Source: Zingiber officinale (taxonomy: Eukaryota; Streptophyta; Magnoliopsida; Zingiberales; Zingiberaceae). Taken from it: DNA of 64,000 nucleotides. Of this stretch, positions 1 to 6,910 are shown one piece after another; within the stretch, counting starts at the first letter, position 1, and each line of letters opens with the position of its first letter. Both the position numbers and the translations under genes were made by a program. Under the pieces are notes generated by a model, which saw nothing but the letters and a program-made list of their open reading frames with translations, ran no database searches and was not told the origin of the DNA. The stretch lies in assembly GCF_018446385.1 (NCBI RefSeq), contig NC_055986.1, positions 24,786,302 to 24,850,301 of the forward strand, in the 5' to 3' direction.

Positions 1-299
1 AGTTAAAAGATCTGCTCATGTATATCTATATAAACTAAAATTTGCATATCATACAAGCTTAAACTAAATCTAAAACTTGTTGGAGTTTTTAGGCACTTAA
101 TTGGTTTACAAATGTAACACCCCAAATTTCATGATTTAGAGTTCTAAAAGTCCATAAAAATATTTGAAAATACTTTTAAAATATTCTAGGGATTTTTAGA
201 AATTTTTAGAGTATTTTTATGGAATTTTTGGAGTTCGTTTGGTATTTTTACCAAGAGGAAGAAGTTTAAAAAAATAATAAGAAAAATATATATGTTAAA

Positions 300-376
300 G
301 CCGGGTTTTGAACCCAAGACCTCGGAGCCGAACCAGGTTCTAATCGGATGCAGCCAACCAGCTGAGCTACACGATT
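300..376 (-). other. tRNA-like unit 3 inside the LTR
   Basis: On the minus strand it has the A box TAGCTCAGCTGG and the B-box-like GGTTCAAAACC, 146 nt downstream of unit 2. Like its neighbours it keeps a tRNA length and tRNA box spacing but has no convincing acceptor stem. Confidence 0.6.
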
Positions 377-450
377 TTTGTTAACATTATATGGAGCGAA
401 ATATATATAAGCAGTATTTAGGAATGTTTAAATAAATTGAAAATAAAAGT

Positions 451-522
451 GCGCGGATGAGGAATCGAAGCTGCGACCTGGGATTTGGTTAAAACTGGGT
501 TAACCAAGTGTGCTAGAAGTCA
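451..522 (-). other. tRNA-like unit 2 inside the LTR
   Basis: On the minus strand it has an A-box-like TAGCACACTTGG and a B-box-like GCTTCGATTCC and is followed by a T-run. It starts about 145 nt downstream of unit 1 and shares its spacer sequence (CCTAACTACTGCTTAA). It is more degenerate than unit 1. Confidence 0.6.
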
Positions 523-593
523 TTTGTTATTATAGAAGGAGAAAAATTCTATTTAAGCAGTAGTTAGGAAACAGAGAATAATAGGAAATAAAA

Positions 594-667
594 TGGTTGC
601 AGCTGGGATTCGAACCCGCGAGTCGCGCCCGAAGCAGAATGCAGCCAACCAACTGGGCCAGCGGGCT
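594..667 (-). other. tRNA-like unit 1 inside the LTR
   Basis: Read on the minus strand it starts GCCCGCTGGCCCAGTTGG, which contains an A box (TGGCCCAGTTGG). It carries a B box (GGTTCGAATCC) about 45 nt later, ends in CTGCAACCA and is followed by TTTT. Length and box spacing are tRNA-like, but the acceptor arms do not pair well, so this is a tRNA-derived sequence rather than a functional tRNA. It is the first of three units spaced about 146 nt apart. Confidence 0.7.
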
Positions 668-980
668 TTATTAATAAGAAGGGAAGCGAAAAATATATAA
701 GCAATAGTAGTTAATAGAAATATTGAGAACTTAGGTTTTTCCCCGTGACAAAATCTTCTCCTCTCCTCCTCTCGCGACGGCGCTTCTCCTCTCGGGCGAA
801 AACAGAGACGAAGCTAGGGCTTCGTCTCCGGCGGCCAGCGAGCACCCTTCTCCGTGAGTTCTTCATACCTTTGTGATCCTCTCGTCGAGGAGAGCAAGAA
901 GATACCAAGAGATCGTCGAGGAAGCATATATCCGAAACCCTAGCACCTCTCTTTCTCGGTTGTAAGTCCAAGAAAACGAA

Positions 981-998
981 GGTGAGTTGCTACTCACC
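981..998 (+). promoter_or_regulatory. Splice-donor hairpin in the LTR
   Basis: GGTGAGT and ACTCACC form a perfect 7-bp stem with a 4-nt loop. The left arm, preceded by AA, is a near-consensus 5' splice site. The same hairpin is kept in the inverted related LTR at 3993-4010. It follows a CT-rich, 5'-UTR-like stretch (740-960). A role in splicing LTR transcripts is inference. Confidence 0.45.
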
Positions 999-2645
999 TG
1001 CAGTAGGATAGCTCCGAGATTTGGCTTTGGTGTTTTCTTGTTTTCTTGAGTTTTGCCGTGAAGAATCTTGGTTTTTTTGTTTGCTGCCGTGAACCTTAAA
1101 GAAAGAAGAGACAAATTAGTTCAGTAAGCATGAAGAACAGATTTCGGATTCCTGTGTTGGGCAAGGAACAAGGAAGAGTTTAGTTTCCTTTAAAGCATGT
1201 AGTTTGATTTTGTAGAATGGTATGTTATAATACAACACATGAAGAACAGCCATGTTTTCCTAGGTTTTCAGTAGCAAATCTTTGTTTGGTTGCAAGGTGT
1301 GTACAATGGCACAATGTTGGTGAATATGCTGTGAGATACTTGATTGTAGTTTAGTCCTTAAAGCATGTAAGTAATGTACTGCAGATTTATGCAATTGATA
1401 TGGAATTTGTGATGTGTTCAGATTATTTTATAGCAAATAGAAAGATGTAAGTGCAGGTGGTTACAAAATTAAATCTTAGACATGAAGGATTTTATGGATC
1501 TTAAAAGGAAAACGAGAGCATGAAGCTTTTTAATGTTAAAGGATCTTAGTTGAAGAATTAGCAATGTGAGAGACACAGTAATATAAAGATAAATAAGAGT
1601 TAGAGGGAGACAAGGGATAGTCATAACATATGACAGTATTAAGCTCTATAATAAGTCAGATCAGCAGGAATGATGATAAGAGAATACTAGTAATGTTAGA
1701 TGGATTCTAAGTAAATTGTAGTATATAGTATATTTACTGCAACTCTACTTGTGCTATTCAGCTTATATCAGTTAGATCTCTTAATGGCTAATTTGAACAT
1801 GCAGTGATCTCTTCATTTTATAGTTTAGTGTTTCAGTTTGAAATTGTTCTGTTAATTCCATGCAGCAATGATTCCTTTATTTTCTAGATTCTATTGCATG
1901 TCTAGTAGTTGAATTTGTTTTACTATCACAGCATGCTTAAGTTGTTCTAGTTTCCTATTTGCTATTGGAATAACATGAGCAGTCCTATTTTTATAGCATG
2001 CAGATTTTAGATAAGCTTAGTATGCAGATTTTGATAGGCTTAATATGCAGAATTTTGTTAAGCTTTGCATGCAGATTTATGTTAAGCTTTGTATACAGAT
2101 TTTCAGTACGTAGGGTGTGTTCTAGTGCACACCAAGTGCTTGATAAAATGCTTAGTTCAATATAATGCTACAGTAGGCATTTTAATAGCTCAGTTAATGC
2201 AGTAGAAGCATTTAAAATCACTTATTTAGTCTTGCTTCAGCTTATATGGGACTACGGTCCAATGGGTGGGCTCCCTCTAGGTTCAGATAACCTAGTTCTA
2301 GGTTCGGATAACCTAGTTAAAGCAAGGTAAGAAAATTAGCTATGAAATCGGTATTTTATTTGTAATGGATTAGATATCCATTGGGTTGGACTCCCATCGT
2401 CCCTAGGTTTAGATAACCTAGTAAACCCTACTAGACCCTAACTTGCAATCCCGGGTTTAGTTAGGGATCCGCGCACCTGGCCCATCAGCAGCATGATTAT
2501 TATTTTAATCTATTATGTAAATAGTTTTCAAAACTTCACAAATTAGTTATGTGAATACAAGTTAGACTCAGTTTAGCATTAATTAGTTTAGCTTAGGTAT
2601 CAATTCAGTTTCTTATTGATACACATGATAGTTCTATGATTAGCT

Positions 2646-2950
2646 TTACATGTTTAGTATTTCATTCCTTTATTGGTTTATGAGCATGATTAGCTATACA
2701 TGTTTAGTATTTCAGTTAGTATGATTCCTTTATTGATTTATGAGCATGATTAGCTATACATGTTTAGTATTTCAGTTAGTATGATTCCTTTATTGATTTA
2801 TGAGCATGATTAGCTGTACATGTTTAATATCTCAGTTAGCATGATTCCTTTGCTATTTATGAGCATGAGTAGCTATACATGTTAGTTTTTCAGTTAGTTG
2901 ATTTCTTTGCTATTTATGAGCATGAGTAGCTTTGCATGTTAGTATTCAGT
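2646..2950 (+). repeat. 60-bp tandem repeat, about 5 copies
   Basis: Units read roughly CATGTTTAGTATTTCAGTTA, then TGATTCCTTTATTGATTTAT, then GAGCATGATTAGCTATA. The middle copies are nearly identical and the outer ones are shortened and diverged. The repeat lies within the 3' half of the solo LTR. Confidence 0.85.
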
Positions 2951-4307
2951 TTTAGCATGTTTTTATTTATATACATGCATATCGAGTTTTTGTGAGTAGG
3001 ATAGCGCTCACTAAGCTTTTAGCTTATAGATACTATTTTCCTCCTACTGCAGATAAAGGAAAAGGAAAAGTATAAGAAGGAAGGCGACAAGGAGATGCTG
3101 TGACAGTGTGTGTGATGCCAGGACTATGGAGAGATCCAGGGTTCGCTAGCGAATTTTCAGGACCTACCTGTTTAGAGTTTTAGTTTATGTTATTATGAAG
3201 TTGAGATTGTAATTGAGTTATTCCGCACTTGTAGCTTGTATGTCCTATCGTTGGAGTTCTATCTGTTTATTATTGCTAGAGTAGTTTCATTCTTCTTATT
3301 GAGTTATTATACTGCGTGGTTGAGTGATTATATGTTCCAGCCGCCTGTGGCTGAGTATATATTATTTGTATTGTTGATTTGGTCACCGGTACAGGGGAGA
3401 TTTTGTCGAAATTTTTCGGTAGGGTTTCCATGTGATTTTCTAATCATACCGGTTAAGTAGAGTTAGTAGTCAAGTAACGGTCATCCTTAGAGTGTAGTAG
3501 TAGTAAGAAGGGTGGTCGTTACAACAAAGTACAGATCTTAATCTTATCTGACTTGTGGTATACTTTGTAGACCTATACGTGGTTTACAAATCTGCACTTT
3601 GTAAATAGGTTTACAAATAAAACAACACACAGATTGTTATTACTTATTGCCCATCAGATTTTAAATATTCTGTATTGTATTTTGTTCCAAAAGTCTGCCC
3701 CGTTTCATACTCCCTGCCCAGTACAAAACTTTAAAACTAAAGGCTAACTGAAAACCGAACAAACCCATCAAGGTAGCAAGGACGTCTAAATTGAAATCCT
3801 AACTAATAGGGGCTGTTCTAAGCCCTAGTAAAGCTGTTCGTGGTTACAAAAATGCAAATAAATTGATCGTGCTTAATTATTAGCAAATGGAAAACCGAAA
3901 TGCTCAATATAACAACCGACGAATCTAGGGTTGTTCCTGCTCGGCGAGAAGGCAAAGAAGAACAATGAAATCGCGGAACTATTCCTACTGCAGGTGAGTA
4001 GCAACTCACCTTGCTTCTTTAACTTACAACCGAAGAAGATAAAGGATTCTAGGGTTCGGATAACTTGAGTTTTCGGCTTCTTCTTGCGCGCACAGATCCT
4101 CCTCGACGATGGTGGTCGCACACGGTTGAGGACCCGCCGGAAAAGCCCTTCGCCGGCGTTTTCGCCCGAGCAGGAGTCGGCGCCGTCGTGTGAGAAGAGA
4201 AGAGAAGAAAGTTAGGTCACGGGAGAAAATAAAACTCCCTTTATAACTAGGATATTCGACTACTAACTATACCTTAAATATAATCTGTTCTTTCCTTAAT
4301 TAACAAC

Positions 4308-4380
4308 AGCCGCTGGCACAGTTGGTTGGCTGCGTTTTACTTAAGGCGCAGCTCATGGGTTCGAGTCTCGGCTGCAACCA
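4308..4380 (+). other. tRNA-like unit, counterpart of unit 1
   Basis: The A box TGGCACAGTTGG (4314-4325) and the B-box-like GGTTCGAGTC (4358-4367) are present. The unit ends GGCTGCAACCA and is followed by TTTTT. Box spacing is tRNA-like. It corresponds to 594-667 in the solo LTR. Confidence 0.7.
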
Positions 4381-4453
4381 TTTTTCTTCCTATTTATTCC
4401 CTAATCATTAACTACTGCTTAACTAGAATATTTCTCCTTCTTTAATAAGAAAT

Positions 4454-4525
4454 GCCCGCTAGCACAGTTGGTTGGCTGGGTTTTAACCAAGTCCAGGGTC
4501 TCGGCTTCAATCCCTCAGCCACCCC
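4454..4525 (+). other. tRNA-like unit, counterpart of unit 2
   Basis: It has the A box TAGCACAGTTGG and the B-box-like GGCTTCAATCCC and is followed by a T-run. It begins 146 nt after the previous unit and corresponds to 451-522 of the solo LTR. Confidence 0.65.
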
Positions 4526-4600
4526 CTTTTTATTTCGATTTATTTTAAATGTTCCAACTACTGCATATATATACATTTCGTTCCATATATATTTACAAAA

Positions 4601-4660
4601 GACCCGCGGCTCACTTGGTTGCCTCGCTTTGCTGAAGGTGGCTCACGGGGCTGATTGGAC
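4601..4660 (+). other. Partial tRNA-like unit, counterpart of unit 3
   Basis: Only the A-box half (GCGGCTCACTTGG) is recognisable, 147 nt after the previous unit. The B box is not convincing. It is supported mainly by position and spacing. Confidence 0.4.
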
Positions 4661-4736
4661 GAAGAAGGAAGGGCAATTTCATAGCACGGAGGAATTTCAT
4701 ATGTAGAGTTTAGGCTCTCTGCATCACCCCCGTCGA

Positions 4737-5550
4737 ATCTAGATTTGACAGATGTGTACCAGAGGCTAGGAACAGGGATATGAATTTGAGAGGAACTCGC
4801 CATCAGACACAAAAGATCGACAAGAACACAACAAGTTCGATCAAAAAAGAGAAAGAGGATGCTAAGAAACAACCAAATGAGCTGAATGAGAAGGAAGAGT
4901 TACGAGAAAGGGGAAAGATTGCTAGAGAAGAGAGTGCAACAGTAAATTTGTAGGAGAAGAGCGTGCAACAGCAAAATTTAAAGACAAAAGAGCGAAGTAG
5001 ACGGCGACGACACACATGAGGCTTATAAAGCTTACAGCCAATTGACGACAACCGTCCAATCTAGGGTACACAAACCTAGAAACAAATCGAGCCACTGAAT
5101 TTGAAAATGGTACACGTCACGTCGGGCAGATGTCCGCCCGTCACATTAGGCATGCAGTGGTAGTATAGGACACATGCCCTTCAGTCAAAAGGTCGCATAA
5201 AGCCCTTAATTAAAAAGGTATAGACGCGTGCTCAACCATAATCTTCGAGGATTTACGCGTATTTCAAGAAATTTGAATGACATCAGCCAAAATCATGCCC
5301 ACCTAAAGGGATACAATGAAGGTAAAATTTTTTGAAAAGTATTGCTGACCACCTTCCCGATTGGCACACCATCTTCCTGATCAACACACAATCTTCCCAA
5401 TCGGCCAAGGCAAAGTAAAGTTGAGTGGCGTTGGTTCAGGGGTCTCTCAGCAGTTAATGGACCGTGTACAGTCTGATCAAGCATTAAGGCACCAACTGTC
5501 TAGTCAGTCGGACTTGCAGCCTCCTTCGACTAGACTTGAAAGGGAGTTTG
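4737..5550 (+). mobile_element. Tat-like Ty3/gypsy element, 3' internal region
   Basis: This non-coding stretch aligns with 53288-54240 in the same orientation. Shared landmarks are a GGATGTATACC-like start, a TTATAAA-containing segment, a (T)TAATTAAA segment and the closing CCTCCTTCGACTAGACTTG. It ends in a purine-rich tract (TTGAAAGGGAG) just before the LTR, as expected for the polypurine tract of a plus-strand element. No coding domains remain. Its 5' part is missing. Confidence 0.6.
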
Positions 5551-6261: not shown

Positions 6262-6910
6262 AAGTAATAACAAAAAACTAATAATCTACCCTTATATAAT
6301 AATTTATCACACACTAACATCTCCCTCAAACTCATGATATACTAACAGAAAGTATTGAGAGTTTGTTAACCAAAAATTAAAATCGTGCAATGGAATGCAC
6401 CGAGTGAGCAAGGCTGCAATTTGCATGGAAGATGAGACAAATGACAAAGTGATGGTGCCATTTTTGATAGTGATGGCGAGTGAAATGACAATCAATCTTG
6501 ATATGTTTGGTGCACACATGAAAGATAGAATTACGAGTAATTTGCATAACACGAAGTTGTCATAATGCATAAGGGTAGGGTTAAGAGAAAAGCACCCATA
6601 TCAGCAAGTAGCCAACGTACCTAAATAATTTCAATAGTAGTAGAGGTCATAGCACGATATTCTGTTTTGGTAGAAGAATGAAAGACAACATTTTACTTTT
6701 TTACTCTTCCAAGAGATAAGGGAATCTTCCAAAAAAAATATAAAATCCTATAGTAGACTTACGATCTGTAGAATCACCACTCCAATTTACATCTGAATAG
6801 GCACACAACTCTAGGGTAGAAGTGGAAGGATAAAGAAGACTATGAAACTAGGTACCTCGAAGATATTGAAGGATGCAAAGCACAGCTCTCCAATGTATTG
6901 AAGTGGGAGA
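6262..6910 (-). mobile_element. Ty1/copia remnant, RNase H region
   Basis: Minus-strand translations resemble the copia RNase H end: a YSD..W.GDSTDRKSTIGF stretch (about 6800-6700) and, further on, a NGTITLSFVSSSMQIAALLT stretch (about 6450). The remnant is old and carries many breaks. No LTRs were recognised around it. 6144-6261 and 6911-6950 hold nothing recognisable. Confidence 0.6.

Follow-up and report, generated by a model that had tools for sequence, protein, structure and literature searches.

Conserved antisense tRNA-like units with candidate Pol III promoter signals in the long terminal repeats of an abundant Ty3/Gypsy element group of ginger

Results

Tandem tRNA-like units in a solo LTR and its neighbor

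We analyzed a 64-kb stretch (the window; positions 24,786,302–24,850,301) of one contig in the 3.09-Gb, 211-contig genome of ginger (Zingiber officinale), the genome on which all genome-wide counts below are based, and focus here on a set of tandem tRNA-like units inside a giant long terminal repeat (LTR) of a Ty3/Gypsy element. The LTR begins with TGTAACACCCC and ends with GTCGTTACA, represents a family that we call A, and stands alone between target-site duplications (TSDs; Table 1). Matching 5-bp flanks are visible around full copies and solo LTRs of the group, and in full copies of family A and of a related family B, a purine- or G-rich tract resembling a polypurine tract (PPT) lies just before the 3′ LTR. 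In full-length relatives from family A (L018, L020, L021, L022) and family B (L023, L024, L025, L027), TGGTATCAGAGC, which we take to be the primer-binding site (PBS) for the initiator Met tRNA, follows the 5′ LTR within 2 bases. The position of the PBS in these relatives sets the sense of family A as the plus strand of the window, so that the units at 282–672 run antisense to the LTR that carries them, in agreement with the first-pass annotation. Adjoining the solo LTR is a fragment of a family B LTR, about 71% identical to that of family A and lying in the opposite orientation, with two complete units and a truncated third that are antisense to their own LTR as well.

The units have the layout of a type-2 RNA polymerase III (Pol III) promoter, with an A box, a B box, and a T-run in the order and at the spacing of a tRNA gene. 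The A-to-B distance is 44, 44, and 55 nt in family A units 1–3 and 44 nt in both complete family B units, while the T-run follows the start of the B box by 23, 23, and 28 nt in family A and by 23 nt in both family B units; unit 2 differs from the consensus in a single letter of the A box and in the second letter of the B box, which is a C. Profile matches to the family A units begin at 672, 527, and 381, giving spacings of 145 and 146 nt, and the stretch that precedes the units is common to them (74% identity between 639–706 and 348–416). Three minus-strand units at this spacing, a shared spacer, and boxes at tRNA spacing followed by a T-run had all been proposed from the letters of the window, and all were borne out. 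A strict scan for the A- and B-box consensus over both strands of the 64 kb returned two matches (unit 1 and the family B unit at 4314) vs 0.27 expected, and the maximum in 30 Markov shuffles was also two. Taken alone, the window offers only suggestive support for the boxes, and the decision rests on the genome-wide evidence that follows.

Table 1. Features at the start of the window
Feature	Position	Strand	Details
TSD ACAAA, left of solo LTR	108..112	.	equal to 3524..3528
Solo LTR, family A, Ty3/Gypsy element	113..3523	+ (sense)	3,411 bp; TGTAAC...GTTACA; bounds, TSD, relatives with PBS
Family A unit 3, nearest LTR start	282..381	-	A box 369-358, B box 314-305, T-run 286-282, TATA-like at -41
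Family A unit 2	444..527	-	A box 515-504, B box 471-462, T-run 448-445, TATA-like at -41
Family A unit 1, outermost	589..672	-	A box 660-649, B box 616-607, T-run 593-590, TATA-like at -40
TSD ACAAA, right of solo LTR	3524..3528	.	equal to 108..112
Fragment of related LTR element, family B, adjoining solo LTR	3524..4638	- (LTR sense, by relatives)	95.8% match to L017:954-2053
Family B unit 1	4302..4385	+	A box 4314-4325, B box 4358-4367, T-run 4381-4385
Family B unit 2	4448..4531	+	A box 4460-4471, B box 4504-4513, T-run 4527-4531
Family B unit 3, truncated	4595..4642	+	profile match stops at model position 48

The units are carried by thousands of LTRs

A motif from the LTR start that lies outside the units, AAACGANNTCCAAAAATNNNNTAAAAATA, has 15,537 matches in the genome, against none for its reversed control. 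Our sample of 40 LTRs (L057–L096) comprises the odd rows 3–81 of roughly 100 listed among these matches; all 40 copies lie at 2.8–30 Mb of the window's contig, and one of them, L080, is the family B copy already present in L017. A profile built solely from the five complete window units matched the proximal unit in all 40 LTRs, in 37 at E ≤ 0.01 and in the others at 0.018, 0.097, and 0.32. With a wider profile, built from 34 sampled proximal units plus the five window units, every LTR was found to carry at least one unit, with one unit in 20 LTRs, two in 17, and three in 3, spaced 142–156 nt apart, and some family A copies have four; this supplies the number of copies per LTR that the first-pass annotation had left to be counted. 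All 65 wider-profile matches are antisense to the LTR holding the start motif, and the reversed-sequence control gave none.

The same association is found from the side of the boxes. A pattern joining the A and B boxes has 1,531 genome matches (reversed control, 0), and at 20 loci picked by this pattern (L037–L056), each matched unit has the LTR-start motif after it, in a copy with no more than one mismatch. These box-chosen loci were kept out of the conservation test as such, yet two recur in the sample (L040 = L072, L041 = L095). Genome-wide, exact GGTTCGA occurs 45–75 nt before a 20-mer of the LTR start 4,327 times, with a few copies counted twice, and the 20-mer itself occurs 7,356 times; with a scrambled heptamer in place of GGTTCGA, the genome-wide search gave no match. 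Antisense tRNA-like units in the LTR are thus confirmed as real and more general than the window showed, and they belong to a very abundant element group, with thousands of copies in one genome.

Coding Ty3/Gypsy elements carry the units

The open reading frames (ORFs) in the interior of L023 encode reverse transcriptase, RNase H, integrase zinc-binding, and SH3_Tf2-1 domains. In L025 we found these four domains plus a weak integrase core; L027 has RNase H and SH3_Tf2-1, the integrase C-terminal domain. Two of the 11 ORFs submitted to the domain search had no match. The order reverse transcriptase, RNase H, integrase that defines Ty3/Gypsy elements is present in L023 and L025. A candidate Chromo domain in L025 (E = 5.1e-4) scored 20.4 bits, below the Pfam cut-off of 25.1, and none was reported in the SH3_Tf2-1 ORFs of L023, L018, and L027. 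The element is of the Ty3/Gypsy type, and probably a chromovirus. Reading frames are interrupted in the L023, L025, and L027 copies. Both LTRs of each of the three carry units, meaning that the units belong to coding elements and not only to miniature ones.

Giant LTRs also flank short interiors, of about 0.42 kb in L021, 1.1 kb in L022, and 2.4 kb in L020, the last of which has a partial additional LTR start at 6372–6528.

The boxes are conserved between families

Conservation of the boxes relative to the spacers among genomic copies had been set beforehand as the test of the units, and the boxes proved more conserved. Across 34 rows less than 88% identical, after removal of six near-duplicates from the 40, the B box averages a pairwise identity of 0.82, the GAGGTC block ahead of the T stem 0.83, and the A box 0.66, vs 0.47 in the remainder of the unit and 0.49 in the upstream spacer. 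The highest value among 76 other 10-column alignment windows of the spacer and unit body is 0.66, under that of the B box. In the proximal units, for which box scores are given without a null, the B box agrees with the consensus at all 10 positions in 32 of 40 and at nine or more in 39 (two positions free), and the A box agrees at 10 or more of 12 in 30 of 40 (four positions free). In the distal units, at least nine B-box positions agree in 23/23 vs 2.4% in the null and at least 10 A-box positions in 16/23 vs 22%, scores that are partly circular in that these units were found with the wider profile. Four consecutive Ts (T4) occur 14–29 nt after the B-box start in every proximal unit (40/40) and after the B box in 22 of 23 distal units. 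The A-to-B distance in the 40 sampled LTRs falls into two groups about 10 nt apart, 44–45 (n = 13) and 52–60 (n = 27), much as the lengths of tRNAs differ according to whether a long variable arm or an intron is present.

A mutational cold spot at the boxes was considered and is argued against by a comparison of 5′ and 3′ LTRs in nine elements over about 650 nt, where 17 of 532 box sites changed vs 124 of 5,330 other sites; the boxes, which were located by text pattern with some missed (34 box sites in L023), change no slower than other sites. Once an element has inserted, its boxes decay no more slowly than the sequence around them; the likeness of the boxes from family to family is therefore better explained by selection in the lineages that transpose than by infrequent mutation. 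Together these comparisons suggest that promoter signals have been kept by evolution while the tRNA body decays.

The tRNA fold is largely lost

When the five complete window units were compared with 20 tRNA loci of the same genome, shuffles scored as well in 0, 1, 1, 0, and 0 of 200, and the best-matching tRNA among the 20 loci fetched differed unit by unit. Real tRNA genes were rejected as an explanation, given that neither ARAGORN nor Rfam recognizes a tRNA and the acceptor stem is mostly unpaired. ARAGORN at default settings found no tRNA in the window, and a lowered threshold brought hundreds of unspecific low-score calls. Rfam gave no match on the window at the gathering cut-off and none on 1–5000 at E ≤ 1; at E ≤ 10 on two short stretches it returned no tRNA family, the nearest match being T-arm letters in the tmRNA model at 9.7 bits. 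RNAalifold assigns the longer class a consensus fold of -0.22 kcal/mol; for the shorter class it predicts no more than a T-arm hairpin, at -1.4 kcal/mol. The acceptor stem is paired in 34% of cells in the longer class and 33% in the shorter. Taken jointly, the acceptor and T stems of the longer class exceed all 500 shuffles in paired cells and covariation score, though not in number of pair types (183/500), whereas in the shorter class 140 of 500 shuffles pair equally well and a +1 slide scores higher. A conserved cloverleaf RNA is therefore unsupported apart from the T arm. That the boxes and the B-box-overlapping T arm are kept, and most of the remainder is not, suggests selection on promoter signals more than on an RNA.

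Start signals and a back-to-back sense TATA

Upstream of 63 units, TATA-like matches concentrate at -40 (26), -39 (15), and -41 (12; overlaps counted), the next position having 8, and CAA or CAG is most frequent at -11 (16), -13 (15), and -10 (12). With a looser pattern set, 45 of the 63 have a TATA-like match at -55 to -25, and 47 have CAA, CAG, or CAC at -18 to -4. An upstream TATA and CAA and a downstream poly(T) are known as signals of plant tRNA genes, of which only a fraction has them (PMC11700998). The retention of start and stop signals in the ginger units suggests that whole transcription units are kept, and not bare TFIIIC sites.

On the opposite strand, 32 of the 40 LTRs have a sense TATAA[AG] between -86 and -54 relative to the outermost A box (Markov null mean 1.7, maximum 7, 200 runs), a range fixed after the positions were seen. 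We presume this to be the RNA polymerase II (Pol II) TATA box of the LTR, in a back-to-back arrangement with the outermost unit. Of six other copies of family A that we examined, four have a sense TATA at -75 and two, which are copies with four units, have it at -69. In five LTRs (L068, L070, L077, L078, L084), the spacer with the sense TATA repeats at steps of about 80 nt upstream of a single unit, without a tRNA-like body, so that two or three TATA boxes stand in a row.

Discussion

The anatomy of the units, their orientation, their copy number, and the conservation of their boxes over the within-element baseline are the observations that an explanation must accommodate. We consider it probable, with appreciable room for doubt, that the units are selected tRNA-derived Pol III type-2 promoters, one to four per LTR, in the U3 region of a large Ty3/Gypsy group, divergent from the Pol II promoter, and that the complex assembled on them keeps U3 accessible. 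TFIIIC would bind the A and B boxes, and the antisense TATA would be occupied by TFIIIB/TBP; once assembled, the complex would hold U3 and its Pol II promoter accessible in otherwise silenced chromatin, whether or not a terminated antisense transcript of about 75–95 nt is also made. Engagement of TFIIIC and Pol III, transcription, and a benefit to Pol II are all predictions from sequence features. More broadly, and more tentatively, coding LTR retrotransposons may have evolved a divergent two-polymerase LTR, in which a Pol II promoter stands back to back with at least one selected antisense Pol III type-2 promoter, and TFIIIC/Pol III complexes keep the LTR open.

Several findings weigh against selected Pol III promoters that serve Pol II. 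At 0.661, the A box is not above the best (0.665) of 71 other 12-column alignment windows. The LTR-start side beyond the T-run (window about 240–270) is conserved too (0.79 pairwise, 28 columns), and hence the boxes are not the sole constrained part. Even by the loose pattern set, 18 of the 63 units have no TATA-like match at -55 to -25, and CAA itself occurs at -18 to -4 in only 29. Our first range for the sense TATA, -130 to -70, captured it in only 21 of 40 LTRs, and the solo LTR of the window has no sense TATA at -75 (window about 735); the suggested link of the units to Pol II activity is one of geometry only. Orientation by the PBS covers families A and B, the other sampled copies being oriented by the common LTR-start motif. 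Finally, the T stem is paired in 82% and 80% of cells in the longer and shorter classes, with some compensatory change, allowing for a role as RNA.

This last point belongs to an alternative in which the units are working Pol III genes and the selected product is a short antisense RNA of about 75–95 nt, complementary to U3, that acts on the element RNA or feeds small-RNA pathways. We regard this as unlikely, though it is the rival that deserves most attention: start-side and stop signals are kept like the boxes, T4 is nearly universal, and the stems of the longer class outdo every shuffle in pairing and covariation, but the body between the boxes diverges as the spacer does, the folding energies are close to zero, about two-thirds of acceptor-stem cells are unpaired, and neither the pair types of the longer class nor the pairing of the shorter class stands out from shuffles. 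Somewhat less likely still is that the boxes are Pol II enhancer elements or sites of another DNA-binding protein, with the tRNA likeness reflecting ancestry only and Pol III never recruited. Plant U3 repeats can act as enhancers, and the units sit directly upstream of the sense TATA, in the usual place of U3 enhancers; however, a TATA-like element, CAA/CAG, an A box, a B box, and a T-run at tRNA-gene spacing exceed what a single site would need.

That the units are tRNA-like yet no tRNA, and that high copy number needs no function, would also fit an inert relic, a tRNA gene or short interspersed nuclear element (SINE) captured once in an ancestral LTR, hitch-hiking with it and duplicated by unequal recombination. 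Such a history is improbable, as the boxes are conserved between families despite changing at least as fast as other sites within elements, and no unit-free copy is present among the 40 sampled. As for nucleosome positioning by an array with a period of about 146 bp, the nucleosome-length period noted in the first-pass annotation stands in the window itself (145–146 nt) but not as a general feature, with a single unit in 20 of 40 LTRs and spacings of 142–156 nt elsewhere, and we give positioning very little weight. The reading of the first-pass annotation overall is partly supported; the TATA-like and CAA/CAG elements, the back-to-back sense TATA, the copy number in the thousands, and the coding elements that bear the units go beyond it. 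Selected Pol III promoters divergent from the Pol II promoter remain our preferred account of the units.

Pol III promoters in LTRs have been described in miniature, non-autonomous elements, namely Cassandra, Helenus, and Ajax (PMC7215508, PMC10886601), and a 2025 review states that plant LTR elements are transcribed by Pol II with the exception of Cassandra (PMC12786077). For plants, the LTR retrotransposons with a promoter of Pol III type that we found in the literature are Cassandra and Helenus, both of them miniature. Helenus, or TRIMp3, is a terminal-repeat retrotransposon in miniature (TRIM) of 311–1263 bp, the sole characterized plant family being that of Selaginella, with an LTR of 120 bp (Kojima 2024, PMC10886601). 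Like it, the ginger elements have tRNA-derived LTR sequence with conserved A and B boxes that is mostly unlikely to encode a tRNA, as well as a PBS, a PPT, and, as in plants, a 5-bp TSD (PMC10886601). Unlike it, they have a 3.4-kb LTR, coding Ty3/Gypsy members (reverse transcriptase, RNase H, and integrase in L023 and L025), and antisense units that occur singly or in tandem sets of up to four, back to back with a sense TATA. According to Kojima (2024), the autonomous partners of TRIMp3 would have to be transcribed by Pol II, and long stretches of LTR are unlikely to be common to them and TRIMp3; the paper also points out that quite a number of LTRs in Repbase are similar to part of a tRNA, its own analysis being confined to TRIMs under 1 kb (PMC10886601). 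By extension of that argument, the Helenus promoter would drive its own sense RNA, whereas in families A and B the ginger units run against the sense direction that the PBS defines.

Cassandra likewise has a promoter and terminator derived from a Pol III gene in its LTR, but it is a non-autonomous TRIM and its source is 5S rRNA, as opposed to the tRNA-derived ginger units (PMC7215508); Rfam scans of the window, of 1–5000, and of two short stretches gave no 5S rRNA match to the units. With plant tRNA genes the units share an A box, a B box, an upstream TATA and CAA, and a downstream T-run (PMC11700998). Unlike those genes, they have largely lost the cloverleaf and receive no call from ARAGORN or Rfam. 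Degenerate tRNA sequence with conserved boxes recalls the Pol III heads of tRNA-derived SINEs, from which the ginger units differ in occupying fixed U3 places of an LTR element. By analogy, then, the ginger case shares its working principle with Cassandra and Helenus, while it fails the definition of a TRIM by size and coding capacity and differs in orientation. In the open-access literature we found no report of tRNA-like units or of a two-polymerase design in full-size plant LTRs.

The strongest new points, as we read the sequences, appear to be the antisense orientation in two diverged families together with the one-sidedness of the sample, the conservation of the boxes relative to the comparison of LTRs within elements, and the back-to-back TATA. 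In coding Ty3/Gypsy elements, promoter signals of the tRNA type that point away from the element are thus retained, apparently by constraint. Should these signals indeed be bound by Pol III factors, control of plant retrotransposons would be linked to TFIIIC, thousands of natural U3 variants with one to four units would be at hand for dose effects on silencing, and studies of tRNA fragments and small RNAs in ginger may catch reads from LTRs.

Two further repeats lie within the solo LTR of the window. Its 3′ part holds a 60-bp tandem repeat of 4.9 copies (window 2664–2951), and a perfect inverted repeat, GGTGAGT-TGCT-ACTCACC, is found at window 981–998, with similar letters in some other copies.
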